DNA of 24,076 nucleotides from a virus, in the IMG/VR virus record IMGVR_UViG_3300045999_002012, positions 1-24,076 of that record; one strand, given 5' to 3'. Position 1 is the first letter of the stretch; every line of letters starts with the position of its first letter. Below, one piece after another: positions 6,578 through 24,076 of this stretch. A program made the position numbers and the translations under genes. The notes under the pieces were generated by a model. The model worked only from the letters and a program-made list of their open reading frames with translations, had not been told where the DNA came from and ran no database searches.

Positions 6578-9520
6578 ATGGCATCTACGCTTCCTCCGCT
6601 ACTTATCCAACTAGTAGCCGATGTAAGTCAGTTAAAGACAGGCCTTGCTCAAGCACAGTCCGCGATCAAGGGCGTAGATGACAATGTAAAAAAGAGCAGC
6701 ACAGGCATGAGCAACTTTGTGGGCAACCTCAAGAAGGTTGGCGCTGCACTTGGTACCACATTTGCGGCTTCTCAAGTTGCCGCATTTGCTAAAGAGTCGA
6801 TCATGGCCGCAAGTAACATGGCCGAGTCCTTGTCTAAAGTGCAGGTTGTATTTGGTGAGGGCTCGGCCGAAGTCGAGGCCTTTGGTAAAAGCGCTGCGCA
6901 GAACTTAGGTATCTCAAACCAGGCTGCTCTCGAAGCGGCTGGAACTTACGGCAACTTATTCCAGGCATTTGGCTTGGGACAAGCAGAGTCGCAAAAGATG
7001 TCTACCAGCCTTGTTCAATTGGCTGCGGACATGGCATCGTTTAACAACACATCCATCGATCAAGCCATCACCGCTTTGCGTTCAGGTTTATCAGGTGAAA
7101 CAGAACCTCTCAAGCGGTTCGGTGTTGCCCTTTCAGAAGTTCGTCTGAAAGAGGAAGCCCTGCGAATGGGTCTGATTAAAACAACAAGTGGAACTCTGCC
7201 TGTTGCGATCAAATCTCAGGCGGCCTACTCATTGATCCTGAAAGACACGGCTTTGGCGCAAGGCGACTACGCCCGCACCGCCGATGGAACCGCTAACACG
7301 ATGAAAACCCTGCAAGCCAAAATGGAGGATGCAAAGGTCGCACTTGGCGATGCTTTGATGCCAGCCTTCCGTGGGCTGTTGAAAATATTAGACCTGCTCA
7401 TTCCTGTGCTTACCAAGGTTGGCGAGTTCTTTAAGGAGAACCAGGCCGAGGTCAAAGCCTTTGCGATCACCGTGGGTGTGTTAGGCGCTGCTTGGGGTGC
7501 ATACACGGTCATTATAAAAGCCGCGATTATCCAGCAGAAAATACTCAACCTAGTTCAGAAACTGAACCCGATCGGCTTGATTGTGATCGCCGTGGGACTT
7601 CTTGTTGCTGCGATGGTGAAACTATGGAATAGCAACGAGGCCTTTAGAAAAGCCGTGATCGCGGTGGCCAAAGTCGCTCTCAATGCCTTTGCCGCAATTA
7701 TTCCTATGGTTGGGGAGGTCTTTGAAGCAATCATGAAAGTGGTAACAGGGCCTTTGCGTGCCTTTTTGACCGCGCTTTCTAAACTTCCAGGAGTTGGTAA
7801 ATATGCCAAGGCTGGCCTGGACATTATGAATAAAGGTTTGAACGGCATCAGCGACTTTGCTAAGTCTGCGGCAAATAAAGCCAAGGAACTCTCCGCTGGC
7901 CTAGACAAGATGGGCGCTGCTGCTGAAAAGAATGGCAAGAAGGTAGACAAAGCAACCAAAGGTGCAAAAGATAAGCCAGGCGGTGTTGATCCAAAAACAG
8001 CAGAAGCGGCCAAGAAAGCGGCTGATGAAGCAAAAGAACGCGCCGAAAAGATGCTGGACATTGAGACGGATTTCATTAACAAGTCGATTGACGCGCATGA
8101 AAAGTATCAAGAAAAGGTGGCTGATTTACACAAAGCCTACGGAGAGGCAATCGCCGAGGCTGAGGAAGCCGATCGCGAACGCCGCGAGGATGCGCAAAAG
8201 ACTTACAACGCTGCCGTTGAGGATGCCCAAAAGGTTCACACCCAGGCTATGGTGGACATTGCCAAAGATTACGCAAAGAAAACTGCTGAGATCGAAGCAA
8301 CTCTCCAAAGAAAAATTGTAGATCTTAAAAAAGCAGCGGCTGATAAGTCGGCCGATTTACGCGCCAAGGCTTCTGAAAAAGAAGCATCTATCATTCAGCA
8401 ATCCGTTAACCGCCTACGCGATGCTTTTGCATCAGGCACATCATTCAGTTTGACCGAGGCTTTTAAGGGCAAGACTTCAGGCGGCTTGTTAGATCAAATG
8501 AAAAAGGAACTCAACGAAGCCAAGAAACTACAAGAGGGCGCTGCCTTCCTTGCGGGCCAAGGCTACGCTCAGACCTTTATCGAGCAGGTGGTGAAGGCTG
8601 GGCCTGAAGTCGGTAATCAGATGATCGATGAGTTAAAGAAATCCTCACCTGAACAACAGAAAGAAATACAAGACACCTTTATGAGCCTGGAGTCCATCCA
8701 GGACACAGGCTTAGACGCTTTGGCTAAATCCATGAGCAACGGAGCCAATCTTGCGACCTCTGAGTTGCGCCAGGCTTACGATCAAGTGGCAATTGATCTC
8801 AAGGAGTCTTTGGCAGAAGTTGATCGCGAATTGCTGGCTTCTTTGGCCGAGGCTCAGTCTGAATACACGATGGCAATGGAAGCGGCAAAGGCGGACCGAG
8901 ATGCTCGTATGTTGGAAGCCTCTAATGCATTACAAACCGCAATTGCAGAAGCCAAGGCTCGCCTTGAGACTTCTCTTGCCGAGTCCGCTGCGATATTAAA
9001 GAAGGCCCGCGAGGAAGCCCAAAAGAAACTCAATGAAGGATTAGCCGAAGCGCAAAAGGTTCTACAGAAATCTCTGCTTGATGCTCAACTAGCCTACGAG
9101 AAAGCCATCGATCAAATCGCTGCATCAACTGCTGCAAAGTTGGCCGCTCTTAAAGCGCAACTTGCGTCTGTGGCTGCCGCAACCGCTGCCCTTCAGTCCG
9201 CACAGTCCGCTTACGCTTCAACTGCCGCTGCTGGCGGAACCAAAACTGCAACCTATGGCGGCGGCGCTATTACTTCAACTATTCCTGTGGTTACAGGCGG
9301 AACAACCACAAACATTGCTCAAACTTTTAACACAACAAAGGTTGATCCATCTGATGTTCACCTTGCTACTGTTAGCGCAATTAAGTATGGAGAAGCCGTG
9401 ACCGTTAATACAACAACCCTGGCAGGAATTATGGCTGCAAGCGGAACCACATCTACTGCTTCAAAAACCAGCGTGCCTAGAGGCGCTGGCGGCGGCCGCT
9501 ACGGTTTGGTGATCGACTAA
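6578..9520 (+). CDS. Tape measure protein
   Basis: A 980-residue protein, the longest in the window, directly after the tail chaperone region. It sets tail length and is ejected with the DNA. The N-terminal part (to about residue 285) resembles the tail tape measure domain (VADVSQLKTGLAQAQSAIKG; SGLSGETEPLKRFGVALS). Residues about 288-347 hold hydrophobic stretches (AFAITVGVLGAAWGAYTVII and IGLIVIAVGLLVAAMV) that could insert in the host membrane. Two long Ala/Glu/Lys-rich coiled-coil tracts (about 440-605 and 725-885) follow, with a Gly/Thr-rich end. No lysozyme or peptidase domain is visible. The start follows GAGGGGATAAGAG. The stop overlaps the next ATG (TAATG). Confidence 0.92.
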   Translation: MASTLPPLLIQLVADVSQLKTGLAQAQSAIKGVDDNVKKSSTGMSNFVGNLKKVGAALGTTFAASQVAAFAKESIMAASNMAESLSKVQVVFGEGSAEVEAFGKSAAQNLGISNQAALEAAGTYGNLFQAFGLGQAESQKMSTSLVQLAADMASFNNTSIDQAITALRSGLSGETEPLKRFGVALSEVRLKEEALRMGLIKTTSGTLPVAIKSQAAYSLILKDTALAQGDYARTADGTANTMKTLQAKMEDAKVALGDALMPAFRGLLKILDLLIPVLTKVGEFFKENQAEVKAFAITVGVLGAAWGAYTVIIKAAIIQQKILNLVQKLNPIGLIVIAVGLLVAAMVKLWNSNEAFRKAVIAVAKVALNAFAAIIPMVGEVFEAIMKVVTGPLRAFLTALSKLPGVGKYAKAGLDIMNKGLNGISDFAKSAANKAKELSAGLDKMGAAAEKNGKKVDKATKGAKDKPGGVDPKTAEAAKKAADEAKERAEKMLDIETDFINKSIDAHEKYQEKVADLHKAYGEAIAEAEEADRERREDAQKTYNAAVEDAQKVHTQAMVDIAKDYAKKTAEIEATLQRKIVDLKKAAADKSADLRAKASEKEASIIQQSVNRLRDAFASGTSFSLTEAFKGKTSGGLLDQMKKELNEAKKLQEGAAFLAGQGYAQTFIEQVVKAGPEVGNQMIDELKKSSPEQQKEIQDTFMSLESIQDTGLDALAKSMSNGANLATSELRQAYDQVAIDLKESLAEVDRELLASLAEAQSEYTMAMEAAKADRDARMLEASNALQTAIAEAKARLETSLAESAAILKKAREEAQKKLNEGLAEAQKVLQKSLLDAQLAYEKAIDQIAASTAAKLAALKAQLASVAAATAALQSAQSAYASTAAAGGTKTATYGGGAITSTIPVVTGGTTTNIAQTFNTTKVDPSDVHLATVSAIKYGEAVTVNTTTLAGIMAASGTTSTASKTSVPRGAGGGRYGLVID

Positions 9521-10383
9521 TGCCAGCCGTAATTGCCAATTATTCGTTCTCATTTAACAACCAGGTCTTTGGCGGAACTGGATCGCCTTACCAAATCTTG
9601 AGCGTGGATGGCTTGGAAGGCTTGCCCGCCATTCGATCCCAAGATGACAACCGAGGCTACGCAGACGGTATGTTCTCGGGCCGCGACTTCTTGGGCGGCC
9701 GTTATATTTCCATGATCGTTCAGGTCTTGGGAAACGCTCAGGGATCGGCCCAGGCTAATCTGAACGCTTTACAGTTGGCCCTCTTGCCCCAGGCAAGCGG
9801 CACTACGCCCCTTTACTTTATCTTGTCAAACGCAGCAGGGGAGCAAGTCATAAACGCCCGCGTACGCGGCTTGAGCGCCTCTGTGGACCCCAACTACACC
9901 TACGGCTACATCGTTGCCCAGGTCAATTTCTTTTGCCCTGATCCACGGTATTACGACTCCAATATTCAGACCGCTACCCTAAATTACACTCCGCCTGGTG
10001 GCCGCACTTATAACCGCGTTTATAACCTGGTCTACGGTGGCGGATCGGTATTAATTACAACCAACATTGAAAACAACGGCTGGACTGCAACCTACCCAAC
10101 AATCGTGTTGAACGGTCCGATCATCAACCCGATCCTTGGCAACCAAACCGAAGGCTTGGCTTTGAACTTTACTTGCTCATTGACCAACACGGACTATTTA
10201 ACAATTGACTTATACAATAAGTTAATAACTTTGAACGGAAACCCTGCTCGAAACTTGCTGGCTTCGGGTCAATGGTTCTCTGCACAACCAGGGACTAACT
10301 TGTTCTACCTAACAGGCAACGCAGGTAGTACAGTAGTGGGTGTGACAGGTGCGACCGTGACTTGGCAATCGGCTTACATTTAG
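9520..10383 (+). CDS. Distal tail protein (Dit-like)
   Basis: A 287-residue protein immediately downstream of the tape measure gene, the canonical place for Dit, which forms the ring linking tail tube to baseplate. The N-terminal domain (YSFSFNNQVFGGTGSPYQIL, then GLPAIRSQDDNRGYADGMF and GGRYISMIVQVLG) and the segment YIVAQVNFFCPDPRYYDSN near residues 125-150 match the N-terminal belt domain of siphophage Dit proteins. The C-terminal half, with LALNFTCSLTNTDYLTIDLYN and TLNGNP, is the usual galectin-like beta domain. The ATG overlaps the tape measure stop. Confidence 0.8.
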   Translation: MPAVIANYSFSFNNQVFGGTGSPYQILSVDGLEGLPAIRSQDDNRGYADGMFSGRDFLGGRYISMIVQVLGNAQGSAQANLNALQLALLPQASGTTPLYFILSNAAGEQVINARVRGLSASVDPNYTYGYIVAQVNFFCPDPRYYDSNIQTATLNYTPPGGRTYNRVYNLVYGGGSVLITTNIENNGWTATYPTIVLNGPIINPILGNQTEGLALNFTCSLTNTDYLTIDLYNKLITLNGNPARNLLASGQWFSAQPGTNLFYLTGNAGSTVVGVTGATVTWQSAYI

Positions 10384-10391
10384 GAGAATAA

Positions 10392-11300
10392 ATGACAGTT
10401 AGAACCCCGCCCAGTTGGTTACAGAATGGATCGCACCCTGCTGAGAATGATCGCCTAACAACCCAGGCGCTTTGGGCTACCACAGGTATTATCAACAGCG
10501 CTTCTTTACTTGTTCATCAAAACACTCCTGCGGGTCTTTCTGTTGTTGTCGACTCAGGTTGGGCCGCAATCGTTGGAACTACGCAAGCCAACATGGGAAC
10601 TTATGTAACCTACAACGATGCAAGCGTTGTTCTTTCTTTGAACACAGCCGATCCAACCAACCCACGCATTGACCTTATTTGCGCAACTGTAAATGATGCG
10701 TATTACACAGGTTCGCTAAACAATGTGGTGCTTCAGGTTGTTGCGGGAACTCCTGCTGGATCTCCTGTTGCCCCAGCCCTTCCAGCCAACTCAATCTCGC
10801 TCGCAACTGTGGCCGTTGGTGCGGGCGCAACTGCTATTACAAACGCAAACATCACCGACACTCGCGTTTTGGTTACAACTAACATTCCTGAGTCGGGCGA
10901 CATCAGCGCAGTCAACGCTGGCACAGGTCTTTCAGGTGGTGGGTCAAGCGGATCTGTAACTTTGGCTTTAGATTACAAAGCGGCCACAACACTAACAATT
11001 AACGCACAAACAGGGACAACCTACACAACGGTTGCGGCAGACGCTTCTGCAAAGTTAGTAACTCTAACTAATGCTTCCGCAATAGCCGTAACAATTGCTC
11101 CAAGTTTGTATGCCGTTGGCGAGCAGATCAACTTTGCTCAACTCGGCGCTGGTCAAGTTACATTCCAAGGCGGCGCAGGTGTCACAGTTGTTTCAACTGG
11201 AGCAACTGCTGCTACCCCTAAGTTAAGAGTTCAATACTCAACGGCCACGGCCATTTGCACAGCCAGCAACACATGGTTAGTTGTGGGTGACATTGCATGA
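10392..11300 (+). CDS. Minor tail protein, modular (adhesin cassette gene 1)
   Basis: A 302-residue protein. The N-terminal domain (WLQNGSHPAENDRLTTQALW at about 9-28, then GLSVVVDSGWAAIVGTTQ and ANITDTRV) is of a type found in actinophage minor tail proteins near the baseplate. A linker (GDISAVNAGTGLSGGGSSG, about 177-195) leads to a C-terminal beta module of about 100 residues ending in KLRVQYSTATAI and WLVVGDIA. The linker and C-terminal module recur in the gene at 11551, so they are exchangeable parts. The ATG follows TAGGAGAATAA. The stop overlaps the next ATG (ATGA). It is likely part of the tail tip or fibre base. Confidence 0.65.
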   Translation: MTVRTPPSWLQNGSHPAENDRLTTQALWATTGIINSASLLVHQNTPAGLSVVVDSGWAAIVGTTQANMGTYVTYNDASVVLSLNTADPTNPRIDLICATVNDAYYTGSLNNVVLQVVAGTPAGSPVAPALPANSISLATVAVGAGATAITNANITDTRVLVTTNIPESGDISAVNAGTGLSGGGSSGSVTLALDYKAATTLTINAQTGTTYTTVAADASAKLVTLTNASAIAVTIAPSLYAVGEQINFAQLGAGQVTFQGGAGVTVVSTGATAATPKLRVQYSTATAICTASNTWLVVGDIA

Positions 11301-11551
11301 GCCGCCTTGCTTTAACCCCTACAAATGTTCCTGTTTCAGCCACGGACATTTCAATCCCAACTCTTAGGGCTGGCGATCTTTACTACAACACAACCGAAGG
11401 CTTAAAGGTTTATACAGGTTCAGCCTGGTCTGCCATGGGCGTTCCGCCGTTGACTGAAGTAGATGCGGGTGTGTTTGATAGCATTGCCCCTTATAATGGT
11501 GGCGATCCAACAACGACTTCAACGCAAAGCATAATTGGAGGTACTCCCTGA
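11297..11551 (+). CDS. Small tail-tip protein (adhesin cassette gene 2)
   Basis: An 84-residue protein joined by four-base overlap to the gene before and by TGATG overlap to the one after. The central segment (RAGDLYYNTTEGLKVYTGSA, residues about 24-43) is a common small beta motif in phage fibre proteins; a related segment occurs near residue 45 of the protein at 17236. It has too few residues to be an adhesin alone, so a connector or trimerisation role is possible. Confidence 0.6.
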   Translation: MSRLALTPTNVPVSATDISIPTLRAGDLYYNTTEGLKVYTGSAWSAMGVPPLTEVDAGVFDSIAPYNGGDPTTTSTQSIIGGTP

Positions 11552-12204
11552 TGGCAGTTGTAACGCAAATTCAAGTACGCAGGGGAACGGCCGCTCAATG
11601 GACTTCCACTAACCCAACGCTGGCTGCTGGTGAGTTTGGCTTTGAGACTGACACAAACAAACTGAAGTGCGGCAACGGATCTACCGTTTGGAACTCTTTA
11701 ACTTACATTAACAACGATGGTGACATTACAGGCGTGACCGCTGGAACTGGTATTTCAGGTGGGGGAACAAGCGGAACCGTCACAGTTTCTATTGACACTT
11801 CTGTAACCGCTGATTTATCAACAGCACAAACACTAACTAACAAGACTTTAACAACACCAACTCTAAGTGATCCAAAAATCAACCTGGCTTTTGATGCACA
11901 AACTGGCACAACTTACACAACTGTTCTAAACGATAACGGCCAAGTTGTGACCATGAACAACGCTTCGGCTAACACGCTGTCTATTCCAACCAACGCTTCA
12001 GTTGCTTATCCAATCGGAACACAAATAAATGTGCTGCAAATTGGAGCGGGGCAAACAACAATCCAGGCGGTCACAAGCGGAACAACAACTATTCTTTCAA
12101 CAGGCGCTGCGGCAGCCGCTCCTAAATTACGCGCTCGCTACAGCATGGCCACTTGCATAAAGTCGGCAACCGACACTTGGTATGTTGTGGGAGACATCGC
12201 ATGA
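11551..12204 (+). CDS. Tail fibre-type protein (adhesin cassette gene 3)
   Basis: A 217-residue protein. Residues about 3-50 hold the common phage fibre motif (IQVRRGTAAQWTSTNPTLAA, GEFGFETDTNKLKCGNG, TVWNSL), a repeat-type beta segment in many tail fibres. A linker (GDITGVTAGTGISGGGTSG) and a C-terminal beta module ending KLRARYSMAT and WYVVGDIA match the same parts of the gene at 10392. A short TLTNKTLTTPTLSDPKI segment between them is another well-known phage fibre motif. The gene ends with an ATGA overlap to the next gene. Receptor binding or fibre-shaft function is inferred. Confidence 0.7.
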   Translation: MAVVTQIQVRRGTAAQWTSTNPTLAAGEFGFETDTNKLKCGNGSTVWNSLTYINNDGDITGVTAGTGISGGGTSGTVTVSIDTSVTADLSTAQTLTNKTLTTPTLSDPKINLAFDAQTGTTYTTVLNDNGQVVTMNNASANTLSIPTNASVAYPIGTQINVLQIGAGQTTIQAVTSGTTTILSTGAAAAAPKLRARYSMATCIKSATDTWYVVGDIA

Positions 12205-12749
12205 GTCCAGTCTTAGGAATTATTGCCTCATCTAATCAGCAAGGCCGTGGTGGTGTTGTTGGTTCGTACGATGCTTTGGCTTCTTTTACCGTTCCTTCAG
12301 GTGGTCTTGCGTCAATAACTTTTGCAGGTATACCGACAGGTTATCGACATTTACAATTAAGAACATTTGTTCAACAAGCATCAAGCGGTGGATATGTTGA
12401 AATTCTTTTAAGCAATGCAACTTTTAATTATAGGCACTGGGTCTTTGGTAATGGAAGCGGTACTGCTTCTGCTGGCGCAGACACAACAAATGCGCCTGGT
12501 GTTTTTTCTACCGCTTTTTCAACTATAAATAATGGATTTGCTGGTTCTGTATTTGATATTTTAGATTATGCAACTACTAAGAATAAAACCACGCGTTCTT
12601 TAGGCGGTGCAGATAGCAATGGTTCGGGTTCGATGTATTTAATGTCAGGATTGTATACTTCTACAGGTCCAGTCACATCTATTACATTAAATGCTATTGT
12701 GCAAAACTTCACACAATTTTCTCGCTTCTCATTATACGGAGTGAAATAA
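12201..12749 (+). CDS. Putative receptor-binding domain protein, short paralogue (adhesin cassette gene 4)
   Basis: A 182-residue protein. I place the start at ATG 12201, which overlaps the previous stop (ATGA), not at an in-frame ATG at 12153 that lies inside the previous gene. It is beta-rich (SITFAGIPTGYRHLQLRTFV), has a central VFDILDYATTKNKTT segment, and ends PVTSITLNAI and FSRFSLYGVK. The same pattern forms the N-terminal domains of the next two proteins (MDYSN and TSITITAEA with FSLYGIA), so this is a single-domain member of a three-gene paralogous set without the glycine-rich tail. The region is visibly more AT-rich than the genes around it. Function in binding host surface is inferred. 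Confidence 0.65.
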   Translation: MSPVLGIIASSNQQGRGGVVGSYDALASFTVPSGGLASITFAGIPTGYRHLQLRTFVQQASSGGYVEILLSNATFNYRHWVFGNGSGTASAGADTTNAPGVFSTAFSTINNGFAGSVFDILDYATTKNKTTRSLGGADSNGSGSMYLMSGLYTSTGPVTSITLNAIVQNFTQFSRFSLYGVK

Positions 12750-12750
12750 C

Positions 12751-14121
12751 ATGGCTACTAATACTTATGTTGCTTTAGACACACAGACAATTGTTGGCAC
12801 ATCCACCACTTCAATTACTTTCACAGGTATAAGCGGTGCATACACTGATTTACGATTGATTATAAATTCTCAAAATCAGAACAGCACAAATCAACCTTAC
12901 ATTCAATTTAACTCAGATACTGGCACAGGCACAACCAATTATTCAACAACATCTGTACAAGGCAATGGATCAACAACTGCTTCCAATCGCCACACAAACA
13001 ACATAGGTTGGTATCCAGTTCCAGGTCCAGGAGTTGGAACTACAGGTAACTTTCAACCTTGGATTGTTGAAATTATGGATTACAGCAACACCACAACATT
13101 CAAAAGCGGGCAAAGCAGATTTAATAACTCGGCATCTATTCTTTCTATGAATAGTCATTTATGGCGCAGCACAGCAGCAATCACTTCTATCACTATTACC
13201 GCAGAAGCGGGCGCTGGATACCTAGTGCCAAATTCCACATTTTCTTTGTATGGTATTGCTGCTGCTTCTGCTGCAAGTCCTAAAGCGACAGGCGGAACTA
13301 TTTACGAAGATTCTACTTATTGGTATCACGCATTTGCATCATCAGGAACATTTACACCTAATCAGGCACTAACTTGCGATTACTTAGTAGTTGCAGGAGG
13401 CGGCGGCGGAGGCTCGCACAACAGCAATTTAGGAGGCTCCTCAGGCGGCGGTGCGGGCGGTTTACGCTCGACTGTAACTGCAACAGGTGGCGGTGGATCG
13501 CTTGAGTCACCATTATCTTTAATTGCGACTGCTTACGCCGTAACAGTTGGCGCTGGTGGTGCTGGCGCAGCAGGATCAGCCGCAGACGGCTCTGTTGGTA
13601 ACAATTCTGTTTTATCAACGATCACTTCTGCTGGCGGCGGAATAGGCAGAAAATACACTGGTCCTAAATTTGTGGGTGGTGATGGTGGTTCGGGTGGTGG
13701 CGGTTCAGGATATTCCGCAGCGCCAAGCGGTGTTGTAAACCCTGGCGGTGCTGCAACACCAGCAGGACAAGGTTATGCGGGCGGCGGCGGTTGGTATAGC
13801 ACATCGGTCGACCCACGCGGCGGTGGAGGCGGCGGAGCAGGTTCCGTTGGCGGAACTGCAAGTGACAGCGCATTTGGTGTTGGCGGAAGCGGTCTTGCTG
13901 TTGCGATCACTGGTAATTTGGTGACTTATGCAGGTGGTGGTGCTGGACCAGGTTGGACAACTAGCGTTCCTGGCGGTTCAGGTGGCGGCGGAGCGGGTAT
14001 TTACAACGGAATAGGTGTTGCAGGTGCTGCTGGTCTTGGTGCGGGTGGCGGCGGCGGAAGCACACCAGGCGGCGGTAACGGTGGATCAGGCGTTGTTATT
14101 ATCAGATACTTAAAGGCATAA
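12751..14121 (+). CDS. Tail adhesin with long glycine-rich C-terminal domain (adhesin cassette gene 5)
   Basis: A 456-residue protein. Residues about 1-170 are a beta domain paralogous to the previous protein and end in FSLYGIA. A joining segment (YWYHAFASSGTFTPNQALTC) leads to DYLVVAGGGGGG at about 210, where a glycine-rich domain of about 245 residues begins, with many GGGG runs and GGAG/GGSG repeats. It ends GGSGVVIIRYLKA. This architecture is known from phage tail proteins with a Gly-rich domain; polyglycine-II sandwiches of this composition form the host-binding tip of the Salmonella phage S16 adhesin. Receptor binding is therefore likely but unproven. An AAGGAGATC site for the next gene directly follows the stop. 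Confidence 0.72.
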   Translation: MATNTYVALDTQTIVGTSTTSITFTGISGAYTDLRLIINSQNQNSTNQPYIQFNSDTGTGTTNYSTTSVQGNGSTTASNRHTNNIGWYPVPGPGVGTTGNFQPWIVEIMDYSNTTTFKSGQSRFNNSASILSMNSHLWRSTAAITSITITAEAGAGYLVPNSTFSLYGIAAASAASPKATGGTIYEDSTYWYHAFASSGTFTPNQALTCDYLVVAGGGGGGSHNSNLGGSSGGGAGGLRSTVTATGGGGSLESPLSLIATAYAVTVGAGGAGAAGSAADGSVGNNSVLSTITSAGGGIGRKYTGPKFVGGDGGSGGGGSGYSAAPSGVVNPGGAATPAGQGYAGGGGWYSTSVDPRGGGGGGAGSVGGTASDSAFGVGGSGLAVAITGNLVTYAGGGAGPGWTTSVPGGSGGGGAGIYNGIGVAGAAGLGAGGGGGSTPGGGNGGSGVVIIRYLKA

Positions 14122-14132
14122 AGGAGATCATC

Positions 14133-15536
14133 ATGCCAGCAAATTATGTTCTCTTAGAAGAAGTCACATTAAGTATTGATACCGCATCAGTGATTTTAGA
14201 TAACATTCCTCAAACTGGTTATACAGATTTGATTGTAATATGCAGCACGCGTTCCTCGGCAAGTGCTTCTGCTTGGTCAGACATTATTATCAAACCAAAC
14301 AATTCAACTACTGGAATTTCAACAAGAGTTTTATACGGCACTGGTTCAACGGCTGCATCAACTACTTTTACTACTGGTATTCCCGCAGTAGGAGAAGGTA
14401 ATGCAGGAACAACAAACACATTTGGAAATACAGAAGTTTACATTCCGAATTACGCATCTTCTAATTTCAAATCATTTTCTGCAAACTCTGTTTCTGAAAA
14501 TAATGCTATCTCATCACTTAATCAAATAGGTACAATGCTGTGGTCTAATACATCAGCAATTACTTCATTAGTTTTCACAGATTTTGCAGGTGGTAATTTT
14601 GTAACAGGATCAACATTTTCACTTTACGGCGTAGCCGCATTAGGAACCACTCCTGTCATTATTCCTAAAGCATCAGGTGGAGATATTGTCACTAATGATG
14701 GTACTTATTGGTACCACGCTTTCTTAACATCGGGAGTGTTCACACCTGCTTTAGCGTTAAGTTGTGATGCTCTTGTTGTTGCGGGTGGCGGCGGCGGAGG
14801 TTGGAACTTAGGTGCGGGCGGCGGTGCGGGCGGACTTGTTTACACAACTCAATTGATACCTGCCACATCGCAAGCCATCACTATTGGCGCAGGTGGAACT
14901 GCTGGATTTCTTTCTTACGCAGAAGCAACAGCAGGAGGTAATTCGACAGTTGGATCATTGATAACTGCAAACGGCGGAGGTCGTGGAGGTTCAAGTTCCA
15001 GCACAGAGTCAATTCGTCTTGGTGGCGCTGGTGGTTCTGCTGGCGGTTCTGATGGGTATGCACCTGCGACTGGGACAACCACATTGACTGCTGGAGTAAA
15101 TCCAAGTCCTGCGGGTCAAGGTAACGCAGGTGGCGGCGCTTACGGAAATAACCTAGCGCCTTATGGAAATGGAAATGCTGGCGGTGGCGGTGGAGCGGGC
15201 GCTCCAGGTGGAACTGGATCAAACGGAAGCCCATGGCAAGGCGGTAATGGTGGTAACGGACTTGCCTATAACGCTTTTGGTGCGGCCACATCTACTGGAC
15301 AACTTTCAAGCGGCAGTTACTATTATGCTGGAGGCGGTGGTGGCGCAAGCCTTTCAACAGGAACACAACCAACTGGAGGTCTAGGTGGCGGCGGCTTAGG
15401 CGGCCGTGACGGTAATGAATTTCCAACTGCTGGAACCGCAAACACAGGTGGTGGCGGTGGTGGTTCACGCGGAAATAACGGTAATGGAACCAATGGTGGT
15501 TCGGGCATAGTCATTATTAGATACACTGTGGCATAA
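14133..15536 (+). CDS. Tail adhesin with long glycine-rich C-terminal domain, second copy (adhesin cassette gene 6)
   Basis: A 467-residue paralogue of the previous protein, in the same order: N-terminal beta domain ending FSLYGVAALG (about 165-174), a joining segment (YWYHAFLTSGVFTPALALSC), DALVVAGGGGGG, about 240 residues of Gly-rich sequence, and GGSGIVIIRYTVA at the end. The N-terminal domain and the Gly-rich loops differ clearly from copy one while the joints and the C-terminus are conserved. This is the pattern expected from duplication followed by diversification for different receptors. It has a strong AAGGAGATC ribosome site, and an almost identical one precedes the gene after it. 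Confidence 0.72.
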   Translation: MPANYVLLEEVTLSIDTASVILDNIPQTGYTDLIVICSTRSSASASAWSDIIIKPNNSTTGISTRVLYGTGSTAASTTFTTGIPAVGEGNAGTTNTFGNTEVYIPNYASSNFKSFSANSVSENNAISSLNQIGTMLWSNTSAITSLVFTDFAGGNFVTGSTFSLYGVAALGTTPVIIPKASGGDIVTNDGTYWYHAFLTSGVFTPALALSCDALVVAGGGGGGWNLGAGGGAGGLVYTTQLIPATSQAITIGAGGTAGFLSYAEATAGGNSTVGSLITANGGGRGGSSSSTESIRLGGAGGSAGGSDGYAPATGTTTLTAGVNPSPAGQGNAGGGAYGNNLAPYGNGNAGGGGGAGAPGGTGSNGSPWQGGNGGNGLAYNAFGAATSTGQLSSGSYYYAGGGGGASLSTGTQPTGGLGGGGLGGRDGNEFPTAGTANTGGGGGGSRGNNGNGTNGGSGIVIIRYTVA

Positions 15537-15545
15537 GGAGATCAC

Positions 15546-15887
15546 ATGGCGCATTTTGCAGAAATAGATGAAAACGGTGTAGTGCAGCGGGTGCTTGTTG
15601 TGCCTGACGCTCAAGAACACCGTGGGCATGAATTCTTGGCTGACGATCTTGCACTTGGCGGCACATGGGTGCAAACAAGTTACAACGCTCGTATAAGAAA
15701 GAATTACGCTGGCGTTGGTTACACCTTTGACGCAGATCGTGACGCTTTTATTGCTCCGCAACCTTACGCATCCTGGATTTTGAACGAGGACACCTGCCAA
15801 TGGGAAGCCCCTGTGCCATACCCTACTGACGGCGTTCTTTATATTTGGAACGAAGAGACTACTGATTGGGAGGCCGTAAATGGCTGA
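15546..15887 (+). CDS. Small protein of a family widespread in aquatic phages
   Basis: A 113-residue protein beginning MAHFAEIDENGVVQRVLVV, with TWVQTSYNARIRKNYAGVGY (residues about 40-59), DADRDAFIAPQPYASWILNE and CQWEAPVPYP. I recognise this as a compact version of a protein common in cyanophages and other marine phages, often near tail fibre genes. Its exact function is not known to me; association with tail fibres is suggested by position. AAGGAGATC lies just before the ATG. The next gene starts eight bases before its stop. Confidence 0.7.
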   Translation: MAHFAEIDENGVVQRVLVVPDAQEHRGHEFLADDLALGGTWVQTSYNARIRKNYAGVGYTFDADRDAFIAPQPYASWILNEDTCQWEAPVPYPTDGVLYIWNEETTDWEAVNG

Positions 15888-16116
15888 AACACCAAAGAAA
15901 CTAATTGTTGATCTTGCTAAAGGCACACAGGAATATGTCGATCTGACACCTGCCGAACTTGCTCAGCGCGATCAAGATGCGGCCGCTTATGCGGAAGCAC
16001 AACTACTACGCGAACAAGATGCTGCCGCAAAAGAGGCTCTTAGAGCGTCTGCTAAAGCAAAACTTGTTGCTGGCGAACCCCTAACAGAGGATGAAGCAGC
16101 CGTACTGGTAATCTAA
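15880..16116 (+). CDS. Small helical tail-associated protein
   Basis: A 78-residue protein, almost wholly helical and rich in Ala, Glu, Gln and Lys, with a likely coiled coil at about residues 24-62 and the C-terminal motif KAKLVAGEPLTEDEAAVLV. Proteins with this ending occur next to fibre genes in many phages, but I cannot name the function. Its start overlaps the upstream gene. Its stop codon forms part of a hairpin that covers the start codon of the next gene. Confidence 0.65.
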   Translation: MAETPKKLIVDLAKGTQEYVDLTPAELAQRDQDAAAYAEAQLLREQDAAAKEALRASAKAKLVAGEPLTEDEAAVLVI

Positions 16117-16143
16117 CGGTATGCCTACAACGACATACCGTTA
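16114..16143 (+). promoter_or_regulatory. Perfect hairpin over the start codon of the tail hub gene
   Basis: TAACGGTATG (16114-16123) and CATACCGTTA (16134-16143) form a perfect 10-base inverted repeat with a 10-base loop. The left arm contains both the TAA stop of the upstream gene and the ATG of the downstream gene. No Shine-Dalgarno-like sequence is visible before this ATG. The arrangement suggests that ribosomes finishing the upstream gene melt the stem and reinitiate, coupling the two genes. Confidence 0.65.
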
Positions 16144-17236
16144 TCTGTTCGTAGACCTTCCTACCAACACAATCATTGCTGAGTTGCCCTTAACGGCTGT
16201 GGCTTTTACTCAGCAGTTAAACCAGGCTGGAACTTTTACTGGTCGCCTTCTGCTATCGGGAGTCAACGCTGCCGCTTTTAATATCGACGCTTCCACAATC
16301 CCAGGCAAGTGCGGCATTTATGTAGACCGCAACGGCATCTTGGTATGGGGTGGAGTGATTTGGGGTCGCACTTACAACAGCGCCGATCAGACCCTGACCT
16401 TTAGCGCCCGCGAATGGATCTCTTACTTTGAGCGCCGCCGCATAACACAGACGGTTAACTTCAGCGCTATTGACCAGTTAGTGATTGCCAAGACCCTCAT
16501 GGAGGATGCGCAAGATGCACCTTATGGCGACATTGGAGTTCTTTACAATACCGCAGGGCAAACCTCATCAGGCGTTTTGATTGATCGCGTGTATTACGGC
16601 TACGAACTCAAGGGCGTGTTCAACGCCATCCAGGATTTATCACGCCAGGATGACGGCTTTGACTTTGACATTTATATTGAATATGACGGTGTAACTGGGC
16701 TTCCAACTAAGGCTTTCAATACTTACTATCCTCGCAGCGGAACGGCTTATGATCCAAATGACCCCGAGGCTGTTGTGTTTCAGTTCCCTGCGGGCAATGT
16801 TGTCGAGTACGAATACCCCGAGGATGGATCAATTGCGGCCAACACAATCTACGCTTTGGGCGCAGGTTCTAATGAAGGCAAGTTAATCTCCACCGCGCAA
16901 AATCTGTCCTTTCTAACCGATGGCTGGGCGCTTCTTGAGGACCAAGCCAACTACTCCGACATCACCGATCAAACGGTGCTTGATGAGTTGGCCTCGGCCC
17001 AGGTGATTGCCGTGTCGTATCCGCCAACCACTCTCAAGATGGTTGTGCCGCCGTATGTGATACCTGAGTACGGTTCATACAAAGTTGGCGATGATGCTCG
17101 CGTGCTGATCCAAGACAACCGCTTCCCCGAAGGCCTAGATGAGATTTATCGAATTGTAGGCATCTCGGTGCAACCTGGTGAGGATGGCCCTGAACGCGCT
17201 ACTCTTACTTTGACCCAGGGTTCAGGAGAAGCGTAA
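16121..17236 (+). CDS. Tail hub / tail-associated minor tail protein (Gp37-like)
   Basis: A 371-residue protein resembling the actinophage minor tail proteins that form the baseplate hub below Dit. Visible features: an N-terminal beta domain (TTTYRYLFVDLPTNTIIAEL; VAFTQQLNQAGTFTGRLLLS), YVDRNGILVWGGVIWGRTYN with FSAREWISYFERRRI at about residues 67-107, and a C-terminal segment (YKVGDDARVLIQDNRFPEGL, then YRIVGISVQPG). These fit the Siphovirus ReqiPepy6 Gp37-like family. No enzymatic domain is evident. Hub genes usually follow the Dit gene directly; here six adhesin-type and two small genes lie between. Its start is inside a hairpin and lacks a clear ribosome site. Confidence 0.72.
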   Translation: MPTTTYRYLFVDLPTNTIIAELPLTAVAFTQQLNQAGTFTGRLLLSGVNAAAFNIDASTIPGKCGIYVDRNGILVWGGVIWGRTYNSADQTLTFSAREWISYFERRRITQTVNFSAIDQLVIAKTLMEDAQDAPYGDIGVLYNTAGQTSSGVLIDRVYYGYELKGVFNAIQDLSRQDDGFDFDIYIEYDGVTGLPTKAFNTYYPRSGTAYDPNDPEAVVFQFPAGNVVEYEYPEDGSIAANTIYALGAGSNEGKLISTAQNLSFLTDGWALLEDQANYSDITDQTVLDELASAQVIAVSYPPTTLKMVVPPYVIPEYGSYKVGDDARVLIQDNRFPEGLDEIYRIVGISVQPGEDGPERATLTLTQGSGEA

Positions 17237-17856
17237 TGGCCTACATCAACCAACCACCAGCCTTGCAGCAGATGTTTGCCGATCTCGACAGCCGACTGCG
17301 CAAACTGGAAACGGCGCAACGCTTCACCGCCCCTGATGTTACAACCGAGCCAACCTACCCACGCGTAGGCGACATCATCTTTGATAACACCGAGGACTTG
17401 ATGAAGTATTGGAACGGCACAGCCTGGATTGAGTTTGCCGATAACAACCTGGGAACATCAATTGTTGTGACCACAAATGCTACGCTGAAAACGGTCAACA
17501 ACAACATTGTTTTCACAGGACAACCATTGACGATTGAGTCGCAGCGTATTGGCAAGATGATCACGGCCTACGCAGAGATTTTGGGAACAACTGTGACCAA
17601 CTGGGGAACTGGGCAGATTTATTTTCAGTTGCCCGCAGGATTTCCAACTTTTGCCCATGAGGTTGTGTCGGCTGGATCAATTACAGATGGAGGCACGACC
17701 TACACTATCTTTGGAGTGATAGCCCAGGGTGATAACAAGATGTACCTGTGGCATCCAACTTCAAACGGTGGATCAGATACTGTAACTTATAACAAGCCAG
17801 CCGTTCTAGACGCAACTTCTACCATTGTTATAAATGGCGTTGCTTTGATTGCATAA
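17236..17856 (+). CDS. Minor tail protein with N-terminal coiled coil
   Basis: A 206-residue protein. It opens with a short amphipathic helix (LQQMFADLDSRLRKLETAQR, residues 10-29), likely a trimerising coiled coil. A small beta motif (RVGDIIFDNTEDLMKYWNGT) of the kind also seen in the protein at 11297 follows, and then a beta-rich body ending in TSTIVINGVALIA. That layout is usual for actinophage minor tail or fibre-type proteins. The ATG overlaps the stop of the hub gene. It is the last structural gene before the lysis cassette. Confidence 0.65.
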   Translation: MAYINQPPALQQMFADLDSRLRKLETAQRFTAPDVTTEPTYPRVGDIIFDNTEDLMKYWNGTAWIEFADNNLGTSIVVTTNATLKTVNNNIVFTGQPLTIESQRIGKMITAYAEILGTTVTNWGTGQIYFQLPAGFPTFAHEVVSAGSITDGGTTYTIFGVIAQGDNKMYLWHPTSNGGSDTVTYNKPAVLDATSTIVINGVALIA

Positions 17857-22955: not shown

Positions 22956-23098
22956 GCATTGATCCAAACGACTGGAAAATGGCAGAGCGCATTGCTGAGA
23001 ACAGCAACATTTACAAAACACCTCAAGAGGTACTCAACGCTTTTGAAGCGTTTATGAAGCAAGTCCAAGACAACGAGGAAGGTCAAGACGATGATTGA
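22952..23098 (+). CDS. 48-residue acidic protein
   Basis: A short frame starting with an ATGA overlap and ending eight bases inside the Cas4-like gene. The sequence (MSIDPNDWKMAERIAENSNI, then TPQEVLNAFEAFMKQ) predicts two helices and ends in an acidic tail (NEEGQDDD). The tight packing and the lack of any alternative gene in the 135-base interval support it as real. Function unknown. Confidence 0.6.
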   Translation: MSIDPNDWKMAERIAENSNIYKTPQEVLNAFEAFMKQVQDNEEGQDDD

Positions 23099-23762
23099 TT
23101 TACAAGGGATGCTTATCAAATCCCTGGAAGCCTACGACTCGCAGCGCGATCGTTCGCAACAGGTGGAAGTTGGACCTTCAAGTATCGGTGGATGTCGCCG
23201 TCAGGTTTATCACATCCTGAAACAAAGCCCAAAGGTCAACACCGAAACGGAGTCGCTTGCTTCGATTTTGGGAACTTTTATTCACGCAGGAATTGCAGAC
23301 TCGATCAAGCGTGAGGACCCATTTGGGGACAACTTCATCATCGAGCAAGAGGTTACCTTTGGGAACCTTAAGGGCCATGTTGATCTATTCATTAAAGACC
23401 TCGGCCTGGTGGTCGACTGGAAAACAACCAAGAAAGCCTCCTTGCGTTACTTCCCCAAGATGCAGCAGCGATTACAGGTGCAGGTCTACGGTTATCTTTT
23501 ATCGCAAAACGGACACGAGGTAAAAAATGTTTCTTTGGTTGCCATTCCACGCGATGGAATTATGACCGAGATCCGCGCCCATGTTGAACCCTACGATGAG
23601 AACCTGGCCCTGGAAGGTTTGGCTTGGCTCAACGATCTAAGAGCGCTTGTTGCTCTCAACGGACCCGCGCCCGAACCAACCGAGCGTTTAAGTTTCTGCG
23701 CCAATTACTGCGATTACTACGACCCGACTGGAGAAATTGGATGCCCAAGTATGAGCAAGTAG
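23091..23762 (+). CDS. Cas4-like PD-(D/E)XK exonuclease with iron-sulfur cluster
   Basis: A 223-residue RecB-family nuclease. Motifs in order: first cluster cysteine Cys35 in SIGGCRRQVYH; His65 in GTFIHAG; Asp98 in GHVDLF; Asp109 and Lys111 in VVDWKTT; QVQVYGYLLS (about 129-138), the motif with conserved Gln/Tyr; and three C-terminal cysteines (Cys203, Cys207, Cys218) completing a four-Cys cluster as in Cas4. It probably processes DNA ends in recombination or replication together with the ssDNA-binding-like protein upstream. No other Cas gene or CRISPR array is present, as is usual in actinophages. The WhiB-like gene starts within its last 22 bases. Confidence 0.85.
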   Translation: MIDLQGMLIKSLEAYDSQRDRSQQVEVGPSSIGGCRRQVYHILKQSPKVNTETESLASILGTFIHAGIADSIKREDPFGDNFIIEQEVTFGNLKGHVDLFIKDLGLVVDWKTTKKASLRYFPKMQQRLQVQVYGYLLSQNGHEVKNVSLVAIPRDGIMTEIRAHVEPYDENLALEGLAWLNDLRALVALNGPAPEPTERLSFCANYCDYYDPTGEIGCPSMSK

Positions 23763-24076
23763 ATTGGGATCAAGCAGAATGTCGTGGGGTTTACACCGAG
23801 TTGTTTTATCGAGTGGAGGAAGAGCGGAACCAAACCGCCTACCAATACATCAACGCAGTTCGATCTATCTGCGGGCGTTGCCCTATTCAGCGCGACTGCC
23901 TGTCCTACGCCTTTGGCAACGAGGACTATGGGGTGTGGGGCGGTTTGACCAGCCTGGAGCGGCGATCAATGGCCGAACCCGACAAGTACCCCATCCAGTT
24001 GCGCAGGGCGCTGGAAGCCTTAACAATGTTCGGTATTAGTTACAAAGAAGTGAGGGAAACTTATGAGCATTCGGTT
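23741..24076 (+). CDS. WhiB-like transcription factor (3' end outside window)
   Basis: A frame from ATG 23741 stays open to the window edge (112 codons seen). It has the four iron-sulfur cysteines of WhiB proteins (Cys14, Cys44, Cys47, Cys53, with C-x2-C-x5-C) and the GVWGG turn (64-68) after EDY, then a basic segment. The order is the whole WhiB core. WhiB proteins are limited to actinobacteria and their phages; they bind the primary sigma factor and change transcription, and phage versions can also block superinfection. The gene overlaps the nuclease gene end by 22 bases in another frame. An ATG at 24063 after GAGGGA might start a further gene. Confidence 0.85.
   Translation, partial: MPKYEQVDWDQAECRGVYTELFYRVEEERNQTAYQYINAVRSICGRCPIQRDCLSYAFGNEDYGVWGGLTSLERRSMAEPDKYPIQLRRALEALTMFGISYKEVRETYEHSV

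Follow-up and report, generated by a model that had tools for sequence, protein, structure and literature searches.

Three tandem paralogous β-domain genes with exchangeable glycine-rich tips form a tail cassette that may encode a heterotrimeric receptor-binding fibre in probable actinobacterial phages

Receptor-binding fibres of tailed phages are usually homotrimers, and in complement C1q three tandem genes encode one heterotrimer. In the virophage DSLV2, three consecutive related tail genes fall into clades by position, and their products are reported to form a 1:1:1 heterotrimer, backed by AlphaFold 3 (AF3), co-purification and electron microscopy (EM) (PMC12724248). In the mycobacteriophage Mysterious, gp35, gp36 and gp37 are described as a β-sandwich heterotrimer that is clamped by the distal tail protein in cryo-EM (PMC13252515, preprint). 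In cyanophage Pam3, the fibre gp24 and the chaperone gp25 (PDB 7YPX) assemble 3:3 into a homotrimeric complex that includes a helical stalk and a TNF-like domain, and in which gp25 is one 162-aa chain whose β part binds the TNF-like and Gly-rich domains and whose helical part trimerises; its authors relate gp24 to gp38 of Salmonella phage S16 by DALI, at 2.7 Å over 52 Cα (PMC9608196). The locus described here belongs to a lake virus and lies in IMG/VR virus record IMGVR_UViG_3300045999_002012, analysed as a whole (24,076 bases, possibly a fragment) and called the window below. Three consecutive genes at positions 12201-15536, ad1, ad2 and ad3 (slots 1, 2 and 3), encode paralogous β domains, extended in ad2 and ad3 by glycine-rich tips, and are followed by two small genes, K and J. 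As a whole, the locus is probably best read as coding for a heterotrimeric fibre that binds the receptor, docks through slot 1, bears exchangeable tips and is served by two helper genes, because its gene logic is the same as in the DSLV2 and Mysterious precedents.

Like the DSLV2 tail genes, ad1 to ad3 are consecutive paralogs with positional clades. DSLV2 differs in being a virophage and in its collar domain (PF07484) and gp37-like fold, and the available part of that report mentions no Gly-rich tip and no J or K. Membership of the DSLV2 tail-protein family was considered and rejected, as ad1 to ad3 give no PF07484 match (E up to 1). Mysterious resembles the locus as an actinophage siphovirus with consecutive gene numbers, a likeness by description and not by sequence comparison, and differs in that the available text describes no tips. 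S16 gp38, with which the earlier note on this DNA drew its comparison, also has a Gly-rich tip, but it caps a gp37 trimer. The open-licence literature on heterotrimers, as far as its text was available, yielded the virophage, Mysterious and others such as the A-1(L) baseplate wedge, and the present triple was not found in it.

The genes for ad1 to ad3, K, J, the distal tail protein, the Mtd_N fibre protein and the minor tail protein all lie on the + strand. The product of ad1 (12201..12749, 182 aa) consists of an N-terminal peptide, MSPVLGIIASS..., and a β domain without a tip, and is the proposed docking chain. In ad2 (12751..14121, 456 aa) the β domain (~12751-13275) is followed by a joint, YWYHAF (13318-13335), and a Gly_rich_2 tip (13342-14109); ad3 (14133..15536, 467 aa) has the same layout, with the β domain at ~14133-14660, the joint YWYHAF at 14706-14723 and the tip at 14733-15524. 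All three β domains terminate in F-S-L-Y-G, and ad2 and ad3 share the joints YWYHAF..SG.FTP and LVVAGGGGGG and the end VIIRY. The joint consensus is common to 68 aligned slot-2/3 proteins and is therefore not peculiar to the window genome. The glycine-rich halves belong to Pfam PF21722, Gly_rich_2 (64.4 bits against a cut-off of 24.3; E 2.1e-17 for ad2 and 2e-17 for ad3). In BLASTP, ad2 and ad3 match at E 6e-21 and ad1 and ad2 at 7e-9, with only 0.011 between ad1 and ad3, and one iterated profile (23 seeds from all three slots) finds 201 open reading frames (ORFs) of all slots in 135 sequences. An earlier note on this DNA had claimed three genes with a common β domain ending in FSLYG, of which the first is tipless and the next two carry a glycine-rich part with conserved joints and a VIIRY end; gene calls, BLASTP, the iterated profile and PF21722 bear this out, together with the paralogy and detectable homology of the three domains. 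Of unknown function, phrog_2295 matches essentially the whole of ad2 (3.6e-52, residues 17-454) and ad3 (4.4e-44, residues 54-466). Taken by itself, the β domain is matched neither by a Pfam family (ad1 searched at E up to 1) nor by a PHROG (E up to 1 for ad1, up to 0.01 for the β parts of ad2 and ad3).

Relatives were collected in three ways. Loci L003-L054 were retrieved with ad2 and ad3 as queries and are for that reason biased to tipped sets; L055-L134 were retrieved through the flanking minor tail protein (best 80 of 263), a query that selects for no cassette type; L147-L226 were retrieved with a slot-1 alignment (best 80 of at least 587 matches, all confirmed as slot-1 relatives in one IMG/VR scan, which makes the β family a common one there). 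Sample 1 comprises L003-L134 and the window, with edge-cut runs kept separate; L001 and L002 are two copies of the window and, with sample 1, make up the 135 sequences of the profile search. Sample 2 comprises the slot-1-anchored loci and the phage isolate E7, without identical runs and two loci on contigs already included.

The β genes come in whole sets of three. Complete runs in sample 1 number 44 of three genes and 4 of six, identical copies included; three apparent runs of one (L009, L011, L030) are contig-edge artefacts, each preceded by a truncated Gly-rich fragment where its contig begins. Slot-specific profiles read the complete runs of sample 2 as 1-2-3 in 43 cases, 1-2-3-1-2-3 in two and 1-2-3-2-3 in one (L214); each of the nine cut runs, taken from the left, gives 1 or 1-2. 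The exceptional run still holds six domains in order, because a 433-aa gene (L214:7090-8391) is a natural fusion of slot 3, an FN3-like stretch and slot 1 that joins two triples and is concealed in this reading. It is the single case of two β domains in one ORF among 446 β ORFs, and a search for a second slot 3-slot 1 fusion returned only its own contig.

The slots are three old lineages kept in a fixed 1-2-3 order, and they cluster by slot and not by genome. Of 159 domains (50 non-identical runs of 55), 156 have their closest relative in their own slot, and the slot labels change 3 times on the tree, where the minimum is 2 and shuffled labels average 75. Slot 1 forms one side of a branch with a Shimodaira-Hasegawa-like approximate likelihood ratio (SH-aLRT) support of 99, and slot-specific residues occupy the same alignment columns, for example L, R and D in slots 1, 2 and 3 at column 173. 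The 'ongoing duplication' proposed by the earlier note is rejected because the slot tree shows three old lineages; tips within a genome are also no more alike than tips between genomes.

The slots differ in what is attached to the β domain. Extensions were compared in 101 sets, some of which come from cut runs. N-terminal extensions of 10 or more residues occur in all 101 slot-1 proteins, in 4 slot-2 and in 8 slot-3 proteins (median in slots 2 and 3, 2 aa), and C-terminal extensions of more than 100 aa in 0, 47 and 55, respectively. In sample 1, Gly-rich tips are carried by slots 2 and 3 in 36 sets, by slot 3 alone in 2 and by none in 14; in sample 2 the corresponding counts are 8, 6 and 30, with other long extensions in 3. 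In neither sample does a Gly-rich tip occur on slot 1 or on slot 2 alone. Tips other than Gly-rich ones seem to be plugged onto the same slot: in L116 (636-2315) slot 3 continues into an FN3-like stretch (fn3 E 0.0024, below the cut-off) and a further region, the 574-aa slot 3 of L154 also has a non-Gly extension, and both lack K. An MPI(I/L)G motif of the slot-1 anchor type also begins single-gene Gly-rich cassettes at the same place (seven loci inspected).

This division between an anchor and tips bears on two other arrangements. The three genes may encode three separate homotrimeric fibres that travel as one exchangeable cassette, bind different glycans and are kept for multivalent or broad host recognition, a proposal close to the earlier note. 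Homotrimeric fibres are the usual case, and slots 2 and 3 each bear a tip variant of their own. The Pam3 fibre, which has the same Gly-rich fold, is likewise a homotrimer (PMC9608196). Separate fibres would leave slots 2 and 3 without visible means of docking, because an N-terminal extension is regular in slot 1 only, and they do not account for complete runs in multiples of three with a fixed order, barring the edge artefacts and the L214 fusion, or for the rules of tip placement; we regard this arrangement as unlikely, but as the most serious competitor. The long tail fibre of T4 is built of stacked segments, and the slots could similarly be homotrimeric layers of one long fibre, slot 1 proximal and slots 2-3 distal. 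The polarity from anchor to tips would fit, and the L214 fusion of slot 3, FN3 and slot 1 is a case of sets linked end to end; yet all layers would have one fold, slots 2 and 3 have no N-terminal connectors, and both are tipped at the C-terminus, which is unexpected for a middle layer, so that stacking appears improbable.

The two small genes follow the β and Gly-rich modules separately. K (15546..15887, 113 aa; phrog_7759, 2.9e-41) is the proposed chaperone of the Gly-rich tip. J (15880..16116, 78 aa), which overlaps K by 8 bases and is predicted to be helix-rich on its sequence, is the proposed assembly partner of the β triple. Between the genes for the distal tail protein (Dit) and the minor tail protein, 55 cassettes are complete, near-copies included, and were scored for β genes (B), Gly-rich domains (G), J and K. 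They hold 0, 3 or 6 β genes and no other number. J is present if and only if B is present (55/55), and K tracks the Gly-rich domains in 52 of the 55, being found in 40 of 43 cassettes with such domains and in none of the 12 without. Mapped on the tail-protein tree, B, J and K each change 11 times and G changes 8 times, and B and J agree in seven of seven independent pairs (p 0.0156). Both samples together hold 97 non-identical runs, 91 of them with at least 1.2 kb downstream; among these 91, J lies within 2.5 kb downstream of 89, and K lies downstream of 48 of the 51 tipped and 1 of the 40 tipless runs. The last is that of E7, in which stand-alone Gly-rich genes lie upstream. Among named phage records, 41 hold a relative of K, and all 12 of the regions examined contain a Gly-rich ORF, directly beside K in 9. 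Through this linkage K shows a trait of tail fibre assembly (TFA) chaperones, a gene near that of the fibre or adhesin. J gave no match in the named-phage search. The linkage of the genes, and for K also the fold, suggests functions for phrog_7759 and J.

The predicted structures place the tip in a known phage tail fold, as the earlier note had supposed. In the ad2 model (predicted local distance difference test, pLDDT, 90.9; predicted template modelling score, pTM, 0.71; 68 alignment rows), residues 188-456 match the Pam3 fibre gp24 (7ypx_A) with Z 15.3 over 184 aa at 2.8 Å and 28% identity (Foldseek E 4.3e-6), and residues 191-454 match the tail tip of mycobacteriophage Bxb1 (PDB 9D93 chain Qb, 9d93_Qb) with Z 14.8 over 178 aa at 3.1 Å and 30% identity (Foldseek E 4e-5). 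Bxb1 thus offers the Gly-rich fold in an actinophage tail tip, although the match is confined to the Gly-rich half. The match suggests a polyglycine-II lattice in the tip. S16 gp38 (6F45) is not among the matches listed for the ad2 model, though its absence from the listing does not exclude a match. The K model (pLDDT 95.6) contains one helix (21-34) and no C-terminal helical trimerisation domain; the PDB chain that it matches best is 7ypx_a, the Pam3 chaperone (Z 6.0, 54 aa, 2.1 Å), followed by 5h3k, which looks unrelated, and the Mu chaperone Tfa (5yvq_B), both at Z 2.7. G and K pair onto the partners of one solved complex, 7YPX, since the tip matches its fibre and K, weakly, its chaperone. 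Compared with gp25, K is without the helical C-terminal part, and J is a separate gene; K and J are hypothesized to be a split version of a gp25-like chaperone. A kinship of J with the helical domain of gp25 was sought in PDB sequences, was not found and is kept as a hypothesis only. PDB sequence searches with profiles of K and of the slot-2/3 and slot-1 alignments returned nothing useful.

The cassette is exchanged between phages whose flanking genes are nearly the same. In a comparison of the window with L065, identity is 90-96% for the flanks (Dit, minor tail protein and an 84-aa gene), 83% for J and 89% for K, against 51% for slot 1, 44% and 52% for the β domain and tip of slot 2, and 45% and 56% for those of slot 3. 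L055, L058 and L063 have flanks 90-96% identical to the window and are missing the tips and K altogether; Dit is 92-96% identical in these three and L065, whose cassettes differ. Exchange also takes place within genes. Slot 2 of the window and of L004 share 78% in the β domain and 51-57% in the tip (two alignments), while L012 and L014 share 41% in the β domain and 92% in the tip; over 2,920 pairs the two identities correlate weakly (r 0.25), with several pairs strongly discordant both ways. Seams between the exchanged parts fall at about residues 150-195, between the β-domain end and the joint, and in L005/L015 and L005/L020 DNA identity is 90-96% around the joint and 36-63% in the β body. 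The exchange suggested by the earlier note is supported by these discordances.

Selection on the tips completes this picture. The ratio of non-synonymous to synonymous rates (dN/dS) in four pairs of shared tips is ~0.15-0.25 in the loops and ~0.03-0.12 in the core, rough values at a synonymous divergence (dS) of 0.5-1. Shared tips are on this rough estimate under purifying selection, the loops less than the core. Strong purifying selection on the loops, which the earlier note had taken as speaking against its proposal, is thus found in part: the loops are constrained, yet less than the core. As loop dN/dS is low, tip variety would arise mostly by replacement rather than by fast point change. 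Tips of ad2 and ad3 within one genome are on average 49.6% identical, tips between genomes 49.0-50.7%; concerted evolution of the two tips is rejected, since those within a genome are no closer. Tandem paralogs with diverged bodies would also be expected from a recent tandem duplication of one adhesin gene followed by diversifying selection. Such a history is contradicted by the slot tree with its three old lineages in fixed order, by the missing concerted evolution and by loop dN/dS below 0.3 in all four pairs, and is given hardly any credence here.

In the proposed assembly, ad1, ad2 and ad3 would be the three chains of one A:B:C heterotrimer of paralogous, lectin-like β-sandwich domains. 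The N-terminal peptide of slot 1 would attach the trimer to the tail close to the distal tail protein. Slots 2 and 3, which are without an anchor, would be held by pairing with slot 1, while their C-termini would present the interchangeable glycine-rich tips to the host surface, where we infer that they bind the receptor. J would act as a small assembly partner of the triple, and K as a chaperone of the Gly-rich tip, fold kin of the N-terminal domain of the Pam3 and Mu tail fibre assembly proteins. The cassette between the conserved tail genes is swapped among phages, and within ad2 and ad3 the β bodies and tips are swapped near the conserved joint. If three tandem genes do encode one heterotrimer, each fibre would carry two different tips that can be renewed separately. 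The wider proposition, for which we see an even chance, is that this undescribed β-sandwich family forms obligate A:B:C receptor-binding hubs in freshwater-actinobacterial tailed phages, in which one chain docks and the other two bear the swappable tips; an FN3-like linker would allow sets to be joined in series, and J for the hub and K for the Gly-rich tip would be the two parts of a split chaperone.

Several observations weigh against the heterotrimer with its two helpers. The argument for three unlike chains draws on genetics and analogy, and three separate fibres travelling as one cassette could also give position-wise clades; the inner branches of the slot tree are mostly weak (90 of 156). 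The extension lengths were measured from the first ATG, GTG or TTG unless an anchor motif gave the start, and a P-x-L-G type anchor motif is present in only 55 of the 101 slot-1 proteins, with a second motif in 10 and none recognised in 36. The β domain matches generic lectin-like sandwiches only (GH32 C-domain best, Z 8.0; galectin, 7.4), and such matches may be just a common arrangement. The match of K to 7ypx_a is weak (Foldseek E 0.24, probability 0.91, 54 of 113 residues), and J has no match in the PDB sequence search.

The linkages have exceptions as well. Independent pairs for G and K number only five, all in agreement (p 0.0625). By profile, L093, L095 and L115 have Gly-rich domains without K; each holds a short gene of 65-96 aa in its place, of which only that of L115 matches K (tblastn 5e-6). 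No J lies behind L044 or behind the second set of L183, despite room, and the tipped runs without K behind them are L042 and the second set of L183, in both of which K lies elsewhere in the locus, and L044, which has no K. L096 and L117 have a single J for six β genes, and L139 has a J-like ORF without B. K does not adjoin the Gly-rich ORF in L135 (E7), where the β triple and J stand between, in L143, with two genes between, or in L141, at a distance of 2.8 kb.

Two cultured phages make the family experimentally testable. E7 and F5 (OX376640 and OX376641) were grown on 'Ca. Planktophila' strain LanE-43 (PMC10202952). E7 carries two G genes, then slots 1-2-3, J and K in this order. The modules of E7 recur at the record ends of F5, with slots 2 and 3 and J identical at the protein level, K 96% identical and slot 1, seen in two pieces, 100% identical over 138 residues in one and 98.5% over 67 in the other. 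In the named-phage search ad1 matches only these two records, tipless slots 2/3 match them and, doubtfully, an Erythrobacter phage (E 0.3), and no match was obtained for the whole of ad2 (E up to 1e-5) or the β part of ad3 (E up to 0.01).

The cassette of the window stands between conserved tail genes. Upstream lies Dit (9520..10383; Pfam SPP1_Dit 9.5e-8, phrog_33 1.5e-20), and a fibre gene with an Mtd_N N-terminus (11551..12204; Pfam Mtd_N 3.7e-17) overlaps the slot-1 start with its stop (ATGA). This gene and another fibre-like gene at 10392-11300 have a common C-terminal domain ending in VVGDIA, and their profiles cross-match. The downstream flank is the minor tail protein (16121..17236; phrog_1885, 8.6e-60), which has 177 matching phage records in all, mostly of Arthrobacter and Streptomyces phages, shares ~28-34% identity with the best 20 Streptomyces phage records listed and also has relatives in Microbacterium phages. 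A WhiB-family gene (23624-24076; Pfam Whib 3.1e-15) runs off the end of the record. The WhiB gene and these actinophage relatives point to an actinobacterium as host, which is also backed by an actinobacterial metagenome-assembled genome (MAG) contig with 1-2-3-J and by the 'Ca. Planktophila' isolates E7 and F5; the host probably belongs to the freshwater Nanopelagicales.

In two loci an inserted HNH endonuclease gene (Pfam HNH_3; L004:5731-6276 and L168:7849-8397) separates slot 2 from slot 3; that of L004 starts with MAQNYVL, resembling some slot-3 proteins, and homing into the receptor cassette is possible. A further variable module follows the minor tail protein gene (window 17236-17856), 98% identical in L065, 89-91% in L060, L063 and L064, and 47-48% in L055, L056, L058 and L062; the minor tail protein meanwhile stays at 89-92%. 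Near the end of the window, a PD-(D/E)XK or Cas4-like nuclease gene occupies positions 23091-23762.

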